A stretch of 64,000 bases of DNA from Akkermansia muciniphila. GTDB taxonomy: Bacteria > Verrucomicrobiota > Verrucomicrobiia > Limisphaerales > BJHT01. The DNA lies in the NCBI GenBank assembly GCA_945861535.1, contig CAMAUZ010000033.1:1-64000 (forward strand). Direction: 5' to 3'. Under the pieces are notes generated by a model. That model worked only from the letters and a program-made list of their open reading frames with translations, searched no databases and was not told the origin of the DNA. Shown here in pieces: positions 16,641 through 21,383 of the stretch. The stretch's first letter is position 1. Every line of letters starts with the position of its first letter. Made by a program: the position numbers and the translations under genes.

Positions 16641-17933
16641 ATGAAAAACTGCCACTACGCCTGCGCCTCCCCCGAGCACCAGATCGCCCGCCGCAGCTTC
16701 CTCGGGTCCCTTGCCGCCAGCACCGGCGCGGTGGTCGGCGGCCTCGGCTGGTTCGCGCAACCCGCCATCGCCGGCGCGCTCGCCAAGGACCAGAAACGCA
16801 TGATCGTCATCAACATGGCCGGCGGCCTCAGCCAGCTCGAAAGCTGGGACCCCAAGCCCGGCACCGACACCGGCGGCCCCTTCCGCGCCATCCCCACTTC
16901 CGTCCCCGGCATCCACATCTCCGAACTCCTCCCCCACACCGCCAAGGTGATGCACCACCTGGCGCTCGTGCGCGGCATCAACACCAAGACCGACGACCAC
17001 GGCAAAGGCGCCTACATGATGCTCACCGGCCGCCGCCAGATGCCCGGCCAGACCTATCCCGAGATCGGCGCGGTCGTCGCCAAATGCCTCGACTCCGACG
17101 AACGCTCCCTGCCCGGCCACATCCGCGTCACTGCGGGCGGCGGCGGCGGACGCGGCAGCGACTCCGCCTACCTCGGCCCGAAATACGCCAGCATCTCCCT
17201 CGGCAACGGCAACCCGCCGCAACACACCGCGCGCCCCGAGAGCCTCAGCGAACTGGCCCTCGCGCAGCAGAACGAATTCCGCCGCCTCGCCAACACCCAC
17301 TTCCTCTCCCGCCGCCGTACCGCGATGACCGACGCCTACGTCCAGAGCTACGAACAGGCCCTCGAACTGATGAAACAACGCGAAGTCTTCGACCTCACCA
17401 AGGAGCCGCAGAAAGACCACGACCGCTACGGCAAACACGACTTCGGCCGCCACTGCCTCCTCGCGCGCCGCCTGATCGAAAAAGGCGTCACCTTCGTGCA
17501 GGTCGCCCACTCGAACTACGACACCCACAACGAAAATTTTAACTTCCACTTCGAGCAGCTCGGCGAGTTCGACAAACCCTTCGCCACCCTCGTCACCGAC
17601 CTCGCCGAACGCGGCCTGCTCGACAGCACCCTCATCGTCGTCCTCTCCGAATTCGGACGCACCCCGAACATCAACCAGTACTACGGTCGCGATCACTGGG
17701 GCAAAGCGTGGAGCGTCTGCCTCGGCGGCGCGGGCATCGCGCGCGGCGCCGTCATCGGCAAGACCGGCCCCAAAGGCACCGAAGTCACCGAGCGCGAAGT
17801 CGATGCCGGCCACCTCTTCCACACCTACCTCCGCGCCCTCGGCGTCGGCTCCAAAGGCGCCTTCGACATCGCCGGACGTCAGGTGTTAATGGCCGATCCG
17901 GCATGTGGGCCGATCAAGGAGTTGCTGGGGTAG
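16641..17933 (+). CDS. DUF1501 (sulfatase-like) protein with Tat signal
   Basis: 430 aa. The N-terminus has a twin-arginine motif (A-R-R-S-F-L-G-S, residues 17-24) and a hydrophobic stretch to about residue 46, so export by Tat is likely. The body matches DUF1501, a member of the alkaline phosphatase/sulfatase-like fold: N-M-A-G-G-L-S-Q-L-E-S-W-D-P-K, L-V-R-G-I-N-T, then S-E-F-G-R-T-P with a following D-H-W-G. In Planctomycetota and Verrucomicrobiota DUF1501 genes usually follow a DUF1549/DUF1553 cytochrome-like gene; that partner is absent here. A WD40 gene, another common partner, lies 2.4 kb downstream beyond inserted cassettes. Confidence 0.9.
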   Translation: MKNCHYACASPEHQIARRSFLGSLAASTGAVVGGLGWFAQPAIAGALAKDQKRMIVINMAGGLSQLESWDPKPGTDTGGPFRAIPTSVPGIHISELLPHTAKVMHHLALVRGINTKTDDHGKGAYMMLTGRRQMPGQTYPEIGAVVAKCLDSDERSLPGHIRVTAGGGGGRGSDSAYLGPKYASISLGNGNPPQHTARPESLSELALAQQNEFRRLANTHFLSRRRTAMTDAYVQSYEQALELMKQREVFDLTKEPQKDHDRYGKHDFGRHCLLARRLIEKGVTFVQVAHSNYDTHNENFNFHFEQLGEFDKPFATLVTDLAERGLLDSTLIVVLSEFGRTPNINQYYGRDHWGKAWSVCLGGAGIARGAVIGKTGPKGTEVTEREVDAGHLFHTYLRALGVGSKGAFDIAGRQVLMADPACGPIKELLG

Positions 17934-18003
17934 CTGCGGGTATCGGATGGGATCACGCCCGCGATGACCGCGAACTTCAAAACCTTGGCACCGCTCAGTA
18001 TCT

Positions 18004-18010
18004 GTTAGGC
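18004..18010 (+). other. Integron-type core site GTTAGGC before a cassette gene
   Basis: GTTAGGC fits the GTTRRRY crossover core of integron attachment sites and lies 13 nt before the ATG of the next gene. I do not see the matching RYYYAAC half upstream, so this may be an attI-like or secondary insertion point. If so, recombination between G18004 and T18005 would define the left edge of a 592-bp cassette ending at 18596. Confidence 0.5.
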
Positions 18011-18023
18011 TGCTTCATACGCC

Positions 18024-18515
18024 ATGCGCAATGTCACCAGCATTTTTGAGAGATACCGCGAGTGTGCTCGCCATTTGCGTAATACGTTTTTTTCTACCGT
18101 GGAGTCGAAAGACTGGGAAGTTATTGAGGACTTTGACGCCTTTGCTCATGTACTGTTTGATCGTTTAGTTCTCTTCAGGCTGGAGGACGGTAGGTCTGAG
18201 CGATTGTGCGAAGCGCGGATGCCAGAGTTTCTTAGGTTAGTGCCGAATTCAGTTCATGGAGTGCCGGTCATGATTTCGCGGGAGCGTGCGAACGCCGGTT
18301 CTTGGGATCACCCGATCGAGCGGCTTGCTCCAGGCGACGCCGAGATTGTATTCAGCGATTACTTTGACTGGGACGATCATGCTCTAATCGATTATCGCTA
18401 TTATCGCGGAGAGATTTTACAGTCGCAGAAGTATCCCGAGATTGTTGGGCACGAGCTATTCATCGAGACACAGTATGCAGATGTTTTTTACATTCCCGAA
18501 AATCCATTAGCCTAA
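18024..18515 (+). CDS. Hypothetical protein, single-gene integron-like cassette
   Basis: 163 aa, acidic and aromatic, with no signal peptide or membrane segment. Notable segments are E-D-F-D-A-F-A-H-V-L-F-D-R-L and a Tyr/Asp-rich second half. Base composition is visibly lower in GC than the neighbouring genes. I do not recognise the family; size and character recall immunity or antitoxin-like proteins, but that is a guess. Its stop codon TAA lies inside the RYYYAAC half of the attC-like site, as is typical of cassette genes. Together with the core site at 18004 this makes a classic one-gene cassette layout. Confidence 0.75.
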   Translation: MRNVTSIFERYRECARHLRNTFFSTVESKDWEVIEDFDAFAHVLFDRLVLFRLEDGRSERLCEARMPEFLRLVPNSVHGVPVMISRERANAGSWDHPIERLAPGDAEIVFSDYFDWDDHALIDYRYYRGEILQSQKYPEIVGHELFIETQYADVFYIPENPLA

Positions 18516-18602
18516 CTATGCGCTGCTGCGATCCCGGCGCGAGCACCGTGGTTGCAATCCACACGGCGCGAGAGCCGGATCGCTAAGCTTGGGTCGTTAG
18601 AC
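18510..18602 (+). other. attC-like recombination site (93 bp)
   Basis: GCCTAAC (18510-18516, R'' consensus RYYYAAC) and GTTAGAC (18596-18602, R' consensus GTTRRRY) bound an imperfect palindrome. The inner arms CTGCGATCC (about 18525-18533) and GGATCGCTAAGC (about 18577-18588) pair with unpaired bases, as expected for the folded bottom strand of attC. The gene before ends in the left core; the next gene starts 11 nt after the right core. Confidence 0.72.
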
Positions 18603-18613
18603 CACTACGCGTC

Positions 18614-19174
18614 ATGACACTCGACGGCTTTTGGACAACGATCTCTGATGCGCGCCAAGGAACTAGGAAGCTGGTTGATATTCCGTCGCACCTTCTTGAC
18701 GTCCTCAGCCAAACAGAAGAACGCGAGATTATCGACTATGCTACTCACTTCCGCGACTGCCTCCACCGGGCGTATGACGCGAATCTTTGGCTTGGCGCAG
18801 TGGTGATTTTTGGGGGCTGTGGCGATGACAAGTTCTCCGACTTTCGTTGCTGGCTGGTCGCCCAAGGTCGCGACGCTTTCGAGTCAGCACTCGCTGACCC
18901 GGACTCGATGGCCGACTTAGAGATCGCCGACGGTGATTACGGCTACCCAATTTTGTTCAACCTGAGTTCAGTGGCGCAGCGAGCGTTCTGCAAGCGAGCG
19001 GCTGGAGACCCGGATGATTTCGCCGCATGTGAAAGGTTTGAGTCGTTGTTTCCGCCGGGCGAACATCCGGCCCTGAAGAATGAGGAGTTGGTAAATACGA
19101 GCGACGAGGATGCGAAGTTGTTGCTTCCGAAACTTGCGGCAAGGTTTCCGGATGGCATACGAGGAGTGAGGTAG
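18614..19174 (+). CDS. DUF4240 domain protein, second cassette gene
   Basis: 186 aa. F-W-T-T-I-S-D-A-R near the N-terminus, then A-Y-D-A-N-L-W-L-G-A, G-G-C-G-D-D-K-F-S-D-F-R-C-W-L-V-A-Q-G-R and F-E-S-A-L-A-D-P-D-S match DUF4240. Such proteins are small, soluble and often found among immunity-type or mobile genes; no biochemical role is established. Start chosen at the ATG 11 nt after the attC core. GC is lower than in the chromosomal neighbours. I see no attC after its stop, so the right side of this cassette seems lost. Confidence 0.85.
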   Translation: MTLDGFWTTISDARQGTRKLVDIPSHLLDVLSQTEEREIIDYATHFRDCLHRAYDANLWLGAVVIFGGCGDDKFSDFRCWLVAQGRDAFESALADPDSMADLEIADGDYGYPILFNLSSVAQRAFCKRAAGDPDDFAACERFESLFPPGEHPALKNEELVNTSDEDAKLLLPKLAARFPDGIRGVR

Positions 19175-19237
19175 AAATGACGTGGACTAAACAACCAAAA
19201 TTGGAATCGGGCGCAGCTCCGATCCTAATTCCCGCCC

Positions 19238-19395
19238 ATGAAAACACTCTCGCTTGCCGAAGCCGGTCCCCATCTCTCCGAGTTGGTCGCCACCACGCCC
19301 TCGGCATCGACTCCAAAATCGCCTTCGCCATCGCCGTCCTCCAGGTCCTCATGGCCGCCCCCGCGTGCGTCCCGATCAAGGAATTGCTGGCCTGA
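19238..19395 (+). pseudogene. Chimeric remnant: Phd-like start joined to DUF1501 C-terminus
   Basis: From 19238 one frame reads M-K-T-L-S-L-A-E-A-G-P-H-L-S-E-L-V-A, like the start of a Phd/YefM antitoxin. From 19297 another frame gives A-L-G-I-D-S-K ... P-I-K-E-L-L-A and a stop, colinear with the last 33 codons (17835-17933) of the intact DUF1501 gene but diverged. It is therefore the tail of a second DUF1501 homologue, not a fresh duplicate. The two pieces are out of frame with each other. Confidence 0.6.
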
Positions 19396-19495
19396 GGTGC
19401 GGCGGAACCGACGGAACCGCACTCCCATGTTCGCGAACTTCTCAGCGCTGGTGCCGATGAAGACGTATTAGCCCACAACTCACCCTTTCCAATTT

Positions 19496-19753
19496 ATGAA
19501 CATTCTCTACGAGTCAACCGAACAGATTGAGGCGGTTTTCCCACGCGCCAAGGAGCGGATAGAATATCGGGGGTTGCTTTGCGTGCGAAGCTCTGGTGCG
19601 ACGCCAGTGACCTTGACGTTAAAATTTGTGCCGCCATACCCGTTTTGTGTCGAGGTGCCAGAAACTCACACCATCAAAGGCCGGAGCGTCACCGAGGTTT
19701 ATGCCAAACTCGTCCGCTTTTTCCATAAGTTTGGTTTTGAGTTTAGTCTCTGA
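19496..19753 (+). CDS. Small hypothetical protein
   Basis: 85 aa, beginning M-N-I-L-Y-E-S-T-E-Q-I and rich in aromatic and basic residues, with Y-P-F-C-V-E-V-P and F-F-H-K-F-G-F-E-F-S-L at the end. No signal or membrane segment. Base use is less GC-rich than the surroundings, as for the two cassette genes. Family unknown. Confidence 0.5.
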   Translation: MNILYESTEQIEAVFPRAKERIEYRGLLCVRSSGATPVTLTLKFVPPYPFCVEVPETHTIKGRSVTEVYAKLVRFFHKFGFEFSL

Positions 19754-19756
19754 GTC

Positions 19757-19897
19757 ATGACACCGCAGCCTGACGAGGATTCGCCCGAACTGGAGTCCGA
19801 ACTTCTTAAAGCCGTTCGCAGCCCGCACACCGATTACTCGCGCGGCGAACTGGAGCAATCGCTCGCCCGCCTGATCCGGGAGGAAAGCCCGCCCACC
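19757..19897 (+). pseudogene. Small charged ORF running into a repeat
   Basis: The ATG lies 3 nt after the preceding stop. About 45 residues (M-T-P-Q-P-D-E-D-S-P-E-L-E-S-E-L-L) are charged and helical, then the frame runs straight into an interspersed repeat, so the C-terminus seems replaced. It could be a truncated antitoxin-like protein; unclear. Confidence 0.35.
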
Positions 19898-19899
19898 CC

Positions 19900-20245
19900 T
19901 CGTCCCGGAGGGACACCGCAGGAAATTAGCCGGGGGCAAGTCCGCCCCTGCGGACGCCGCCCCCGGATCGTGCACCAAAAAAACTCCCTGCCCCAGCGGG
20001 GCATCGAAGAAGCGGACCCCGGACCTCATTGTCCAGCGCATCAGCTCTCAGTCTGTTCATCTACCGCCCGCCCGTTACGGCGAATGAAACGCTCGCCCCA
20101 AGTCTCTCGGAAAAATTCTTCGATGCCCCGCCGGGGCAACGGCCCCACTTCCCGCGTCCACCGGGGGCCGCGTCCGCTCGCGCGGCCTTGCCCCAGGCTA
20201 ATTTCCTGCGGCGTCCCTCCGGGACCAGGAACCGCCCGCCTCGCG
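19900..20245. repeat. Inverted pair of family D repeats
   Basis: The first copy (from about 19901) begins CGTCCCGGAGGGACACCGCA and GGAAATTAGC and includes a CCCCAGCGGGGCATCGAAGAA. The second (about 20113-20232) is its reverse complement, with TTCTTCGATGCCCCGCCGGGG and GCTAATTTCCTGCGGCGTCC. Together they form a long imperfect palindrome. A further common piece (TTTGCGTCTCTTTGCGTTC) follows at about 20273. No gene lies here. Confidence 0.75.
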
Positions 20246-20360
20246 CAATTTGTCCGCCTGCCCTCCCCCTTTTTGCGTCTCTTTGCGTTCTTTGCGGCCA
20301 TTCCTCCTTCCCCACTCCGGCTGAACGCTTCCTCCGCCCTCCCCGTCCACCACCCGCCGC

Positions 20361-21383
20361 ATGAAACCCGACCCCAAAGCCGCCCACCTCGCCGAGACCT
20401 TCGCCCACGACGCCCCGCTCATCACCTGCCGCTTCGATCCCAAGGGCCTCTACATCTTCGCCACCGCCGAGGATCGCAGCGTGCTCCGCTGGGAACTGGC
20501 CACCGGCAAAAAGACCGTGCTCAAGGCCCACGACTCCTGGGTCGGCGCGCTCGCCTTCTCGCCCGACGGCGCGACCCTCGTCAGCGGCGGCTACGATGAC
20601 ACCCTCATCTGGTGGCCCGTCGCCGCGGAAAAACCCGAACCGATCCGCAAGGTCAAAGCCCACAACGGCTGGATTCGCGCCCTCGCCGTCAGCCCCGACG
20701 GCAAGCTCCTCGCCAGCGGCGGCAACGACCGCATCGTGAAACTCTGGTCCCTCGCCGACGGCACACCCGTCCGCGAACTGCCCGGTCACGAACTCGACAT
20801 CTACAGCGCCCTCTTCCACCCGACCGGGAAATTCCTCCTCACCGGCGACCTCATGGGCAAGATCAACCAATGGGATCTCGCCACCGGCAAACTCGCGCGA
20901 ACCTTTGAATCCAAAGACCTGCACCACTACGACGGCGGCCAGCAGGTACATTTCGGCGGCGTGCGCTCACTCGCCCTCAGCCCCGACGGCAAACACCTCG
21001 CGTGCGGCGGCCTGCACAAAGCCACCAACCCGCTCGGCAGCGTCCACGAACCCCTCGTCGTGCGCTTCGACTGGGAAACGCAGAAAATTCTGAAAAGCCA
21101 CCTCAGCAACGACATCAAGGGCGGCGGCGTCTGGAATGTCGTGTTTCATCCCGAAGGCCATCTCATCGCCTGCTGCGGCGGCACCACCGGCGGCTTCCTC
21201 CTGTTCTGGGGACCGGCCGATGACAAGCCCGCGCACCAGTTCAACCTCACCGCCCTCGCTCGCGGAATGGACCTCCATCCCGACGGCCTCCGCCTCGCCA
21301 CCGCCCACTACGACCGCAAACTCCGCCTCACCAAACTCACACCCAAAGCGCCGGAGAAACCCGCCGAGAAACCCAAGTCGTAG
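20361..21383 (+). CDS. WD40 repeat protein
   Basis: 340 aa forming a predicted seven-bladed beta-propeller. Blades carry W-V-G-A-L-A-F-S-P-D-G, W-I-R-A-L-A-V-S-P-D-G, S-G-G-N-D-R-I-V-K-L-W and V-R-S-L-A-L-S-P-D-G. No signal peptide, so it is likely cytoplasmic. The end is Pro/Lys-rich. WD40 genes commonly accompany DUF1501 genes in this phylum, so it probably belonged next to the DUF1501 gene before the intervening insertions. Its role is a scaffold; the substrate is unknown. Confidence 0.88.
   Translation: MKPDPKAAHLAETFAHDAPLITCRFDPKGLYIFATAEDRSVLRWELATGKKTVLKAHDSWVGALAFSPDGATLVSGGYDDTLIWWPVAAEKPEPIRKVKAHNGWIRALAVSPDGKLLASGGNDRIVKLWSLADGTPVRELPGHELDIYSALFHPTGKFLLTGDLMGKINQWDLATGKLARTFESKDLHHYDGGQQVHFGGVRSLALSPDGKHLACGGLHKATNPLGSVHEPLVVRFDWETQKILKSHLSNDIKGGGVWNVVFHPEGHLIACCGGTTGGFLLFWGPADDKPAHQFNLTALARGMDLHPDGLRLATAHYDRKLRLTKLTPKAPEKPAEKPKS

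Follow-up and report, generated by a model that had tools for sequence, protein, structure and literature searches.

Behind a DUF1501 gene in a lake Verrucomicrobiota genome lies a genuine integron cassette, followed by a second cassette that lacks an attC site, and both are located outside any integron; the arrangement is of a known kind. The locus maps 18 kb inside a 73-kb contig (C33), of which we analyzed a stretch of 64,000 nucleotides, from here on referred to as the window. We consider it probable that the cassette at 18005-18596 and its attC-less neighbor were inserted at a secondary (attG-type) site in the chromosome by an integrase supplied in trans. The features of the locus are as follows, with a slash marking the cut point within a core.

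16641..17933, + strand, DUF1501 host gene, upstream (PF07394, E 6e-95; 97% identical in the sister species)
17934..18004, + strand, left target flank, putatively attG-type, ending in ctcagtatctG/TT (homologous flank and same core in the sister species)
18004..18010, + strand, left core GTTAGGC, expected cut 18004/18005, the exact reverse complement of the cassette's own R'' (GCCTAAC)
18005..18596, + strand, cassette 1, bounded by the cut points of both cores, 51% GC
18024..18515, + strand, cassette 1 gene, 163 aa, no known family, a short ORF from core to attC
18510..18602, + strand, attC, 93 bp (covariance model and identity to the attC of genome G195), with R'' at 18510-18516, L'' at about 18522-18531, L' at about 18580-18588 and R' (GTTAGAC) at 18596-18602
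18597..19200, right end approximate, + strand, cassette 2, own attC lost (homology to a DUF4240 cassette of genome G227)
18614..19174, + strand, cassette 2 gene, DUF4240, 186 aa (PF14024, E 8e-31)
19290..19473, + strand, decayed second copy of the DUF1501 tail plus the stretch that follows it, with the core-like ATTAGCC at its end (blastn, alignment)
19496..19753, + strand, small conserved gene, 85 aa (homology to the sister species resumes from 19462, 90% identity)
20361..21383, + strand, WD40-repeat host gene, downstream, the ancestral neighbor of DUF1501

The attC site resembles those of integrons in the order

We trained a covariance model on ten attC sites from integrase-bearing contigs of six genomes of the order, with the window excluded. 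At E values up to 10, this model had one match in the window, the 93-bp palindrome at 18510-18602 that the earlier note had called attC-like (56.7 bits, E 2.1e-13, far above background). No other pair of RYYYAAC and GTTRRRY motifs on the + strand of the window has a spacing of 40 to 160 bp. It is identical to the attC of G195, a genome from another family, at 75 of 93 positions (81% over the full 93 bp) and 74-80% identical to the attC sites of G077, with the same length of 93 bp in both genomes; core-preserving shuffles of the element reached at most 54/93 identities. Because two pairs in its L stem are mismatched relative to the sites of G195 and G077, the element looks slightly decayed. A whole-genome pattern search for perfect cores returned no match, as the right core deviates at one position. 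Based on these comparisons, the element is a genuine attC, apparently slightly decayed, and akin to the attC sites of real integrons.

Cassette 1 encodes an apparent orphan

The layout of cassette 1 agrees to the base with what the earlier note had read from the letters. Its single short ORF (18024-18515) runs from the core into the attC, with the ATG 13 nt past the GTTAGGC core and with the TAA stop codon (18513-18515) falling within GCCTAAC at 18510-18516, the RYYYAAC motif. The lower GC content also held (the cassette is at 51%, below the 67% of the DUF1501 gene and the 64% of the window), as did the start of the next gene (ATG 18614) straight after the right core.

The cassette 1 protein matched nothing in Pfam or NCBIfam, and neither the 319 other genomes of the order nor the genome_contigs collection contained a relative. 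The sole relative found was a 26% match on a Hymenobacter plasmid, and the cargo thus seems to be an orphan. An AlphaFold model made without an alignment was unusable (pLDDT 36). A simple scan detected no promoter of its own for the cassette, a search of Rfam with 16-21 kb of the window returned nothing relevant, and the phage collection contained no match to the locus.

A second cassette starts at the right core

The right core has the form GTTAGAC because the second cassette starts there, with a short leader before its ATG. In G227, a DUF4240 protein 61% identical to the cassette 2 protein is encoded directly behind a GTTAGGC core, and the DNA homology between the window and this cassette begins exactly at the core (18596), even though the query included 295 bases upstream. 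Another homologue of cassette 2 is located within a multi-attC array of G096. The covariance model detected no second attC in the window, and the DUF4240 gene is a second cassette minus its attC. Thus, the integron cassette that the earlier note had described as a one-gene unit was confirmed, while the number was not: DUF4240 homology from the core makes it two cassettes rather than one.

Behind cassette 2, an ORF starting at 19238 runs into the decayed DUF1501 tail; it has no Pfam match, and its start (19238-19300) resembles the N-terminus of a Phd-type antitoxin. The 85-aa gene farther downstream is possibly an older cassette gene.

The locus has no integrase, and cassettes are scattered across the genome

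As the criterion for an integron integrase, we used the TIGR02249 cut-off (265 bits). Contig C33 contains neither a match to TIGR02249 nor an integrase remnant, and no intI adjoins the cassettes to form a complete integron. Nor does an attI precede the first cassette: the motif present on contigs C26 and C129 of this genome and on C327 of the sister species G001 is absent, and the flank at 17934..18004 contains neither an attC palindrome nor an attI-like motif before the core. Cassette 1 is instead joined to ordinary chromosomal DNA behind the DUF1501 gene at G/TT (18004/18005). This supports the suggestion in the earlier note of an integrase-free cluster or a trapped cassette.

Elsewhere in this draft MAG, the search for an intact integron integrase found broken copies only, i.e., fragments on C24 and C144 (the latter with stop codons) and a copy on C121 that is missing its middle; recombinases on C20 and C90 are without the integron-specific stretch and look Xer-like. 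G001 was identified through the 97% match of the DUF1501 gene as record BJHT01, 'Verrucomicrobiota bacterium LBMAG_Verrucomicrobia_hypo.bin2', and contains an intact integrase on C327 (274 bits) with cassettes behind it. An IS110-family element lies inside the first attC of the G001 integron (L075:1629-3592, C327), and in the window's genome, sequence related to it (L009) adjoins the broken integrase. Across the order, integron integrases over the cut-off were present in 79 of 245 sampled genomes, and attC sites matching the model in 41 of 58 genomes (30 in G045 and 24 in G047).

At E values up to 0.1, the model matched 20 attC sites on 12 contigs of this genome and 13 in G001. In this genome, C121, C141 and C17 carry arrays, and single cassettes or short runs lie beside ordinary genes on C26, C85, C30, C4 and C129 as well as at the window locus. 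The left core of cassette 1 is complementary to its own R'' (GTTAGGC and GCCTAAC), and at most loci with a single cassette or a short run the left core is likewise the exact complement of the R'' of the attC. The left flanks on C26 and C129 are attI-like, with no integrase alongside, and the window site is not attI-like.

We note that attI-like left ends, in which GTTCGTATATT or a variant stands right before GTTAGGC or GTTAGAC, were observed with no integrase seen alongside at L125 (C26), L131 (C129), L139 (C97 of G001), L137 (C317 of G001), L243 and L244. Stray cassette loci were also observed at L133:4978-5670 (C4) and L130:5564-6600 (C30). One of the stray C4 and C30 cassettes encodes a weakly SUKH/SMI1-KNR4-like protein, and at another locus a zinc-ribbon-like gene precedes a macro-domain gene.

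Where an attC precedes the left end, the base before GTT is mostly C. Among left ends that are neither attI-like nor behind an attC, T preceded GTT in 10 of 10 picked by eye in the two species. With fully automatic choice of the core, the preceding bases of the 19 cases comprised ten T, six A, two C and one G. Restricted post hoc to GTTAG(G/A)C cores and after removal of five attI-like sites, T was present at 10 of 11 loci from six genomes, against a background of about 20% for T before any GTT in the same kind of loci. A recurring T/GTT left half-site is possible.

Sister species carry different genes at the same addresses

Behind its DUF1501 gene, G001 has the same GTTAGGC core and next to it another gene, of 120 aa, and homology to the window resumes at 19462. 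Both small genes of the window are missing there; with the attC score far above background, neither of the refuting outcomes named in the earlier note occurred. The 120-aa gene has the core and no recognizable attC. Similar observations were made at other loci. Between C129 and its counterpart C97 in G001, homology stops at the core, and each side has a different cassette with an attC. Between C30 and C410, the core is in the same place (GGTAGGC in G001) and the genes differ. Between C4 and C481, the cassette is present in this genome only, and the orthologous gap in G001 holds another gene pair with no core. Because one and the same core is followed by different genes in the two species, integron cassettes appear to be seeded and exchanged at ordinary chromosome sites. 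The natural evidence for this reuse of addresses between sister species is unusually clear.

The distance between the DUF1501 and WD40 genes is 2.4 kb here, 1.35 kb in G001 and 6-745 bp outside the genus, where both genes were found. Relatives beyond the genus are without the whole insert, and the closest relative, G001, has another gene there. The DUF1501 tail and the sequence following it are duplicated on either side of the cassettes (17868-18010 and 19290-19473), and the decayed second copy is also present in the sister species (L034, at about 2100-2185). This direct repeat around the cassettes in both species is not accounted for by a simple attC x attG insertion.

Origin of the cassettes

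The reading that we favor is insertion at a secondary site. An integrase encoded elsewhere would have carried out recombination between a G/TT site of the attG type and the folded attC of a free cassette; the site behind the DUF1501 gene is neither attI nor attC. We infer this action of IntI in trans, and likewise the order of events and any present mobility of the cassettes. The cassette 1 gene, 90 bp behind DUF1501 and with no obvious promoter, would be expressed by read-through. Speaking against such an insertion are the lack of a clean empty site at the locus, in G001 or otherwise, the 120-aa gene of G001 with no recognizable attC, and the direct repeat of the DUF1501 tail. Both genomes are draft MAGs.

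A decayed CALIN is a less probable origin, though one to be taken seriously. A complete integron would once have been located here and lost intI and attI by deletion, leaving two cassettes; the attI-like left ends without an integrase on C26 and C129 are in agreement with such a history, as is the decay visible in the several integrase fragments of this genome. At the window locus, however, the core is located 71 bp past the DUF1501 stop codon with no attI-like motif and with no integrase remnant on the contig, the sister species kept its integrase on another contig while having the core at the same place, and no insert lies between the host genes in more distant relatives.

Still less likely, and in our estimate distinctly so, is that the region came in with its cassettes already in place, through homologous recombination or aboard a different mobile element, so that the integrase never acted here. 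The direct repeats of the DUF1501 tail that flank the cassettes do indicate some duplication at the locus; yet no transposase or phage gene was present among the ORFs scanned in 17934-20361, no phage match was obtained, and at several unlinked loci the left end coincides precisely with a core. Finally, a chance palindrome or assembly artefact is refuted on present evidence. One could cite in its favor a free energy only modestly better than that of shuffles (z -1.9) and alone not convincing; against it stand the model score, the 81% identity to a known attC, the complementary cores, the second cassette with its homologue, the position of the site deep within its contig and a DUF1501 gene that the sister species shares at 97% identity.

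Relation to known systems

Insertion at secondary sites, to which we return as the preferred reading, has precedents. Loot et al. (2024, Nat Microbiol, as cited in PMC11023631 and PMC12444791) reportedly obtained insertion at attG sites in Escherichia coli. From these citing articles, a cassette occupies a chromosomal position other than attI or attC in that system as in the window; it differs in being experimental, whereas the window case is natural, old and known from its sequence. An off-target origin has already been proposed for CALINs (PMC8618304). With an attC and no nearby integrase, the window locus resembles a CALIN; with one attC, it falls short of the at least two attC sites in the default of IntegronFinder 2. 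Single-attC cases can be real and are not reported by default in that version, while version 1 counted them (PMC9024848, PMC8618304). A single-attC CALIN is likewise an attC-bearing cassette with no integrase nearby; here, however, the same address holds another gene in the sister species, and many sites are scattered in one genome. Xanthomonas is known to have CALINs whose positions, distant from the integron, are conserved (PMC12444791); these are also integrase-free cassettes at recurring chromosomal addresses, but each cluster has at least two attC sites, and they belong to another phylum. The integrons of G077 and G195, from other families of the order, share the 93-bp attC type (74-81% identical) and have an intact integrase and an array, neither of which is present at the window locus.

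Because single attC sites are filtered by default, natural insertions outside integrons are easily missed. Such insertion is known experimentally; here, two sister species share non-integron addresses with different genes, and many further single insertions accompany them in the same genomes. We tentatively suggest, at somewhat less than even confidence, that the integron of this order may be a dispersed system in which an integrase acting in trans seeds single cassettes at many addresses behind ordinary genes, with a half-site that is A/T-rich followed by T/GTT, and in which addresses are reused so that different cassettes occupy them in sister species. Genome comparison thereby offers a test of whether the whole chromosome is edited by an integron integrase in nature.
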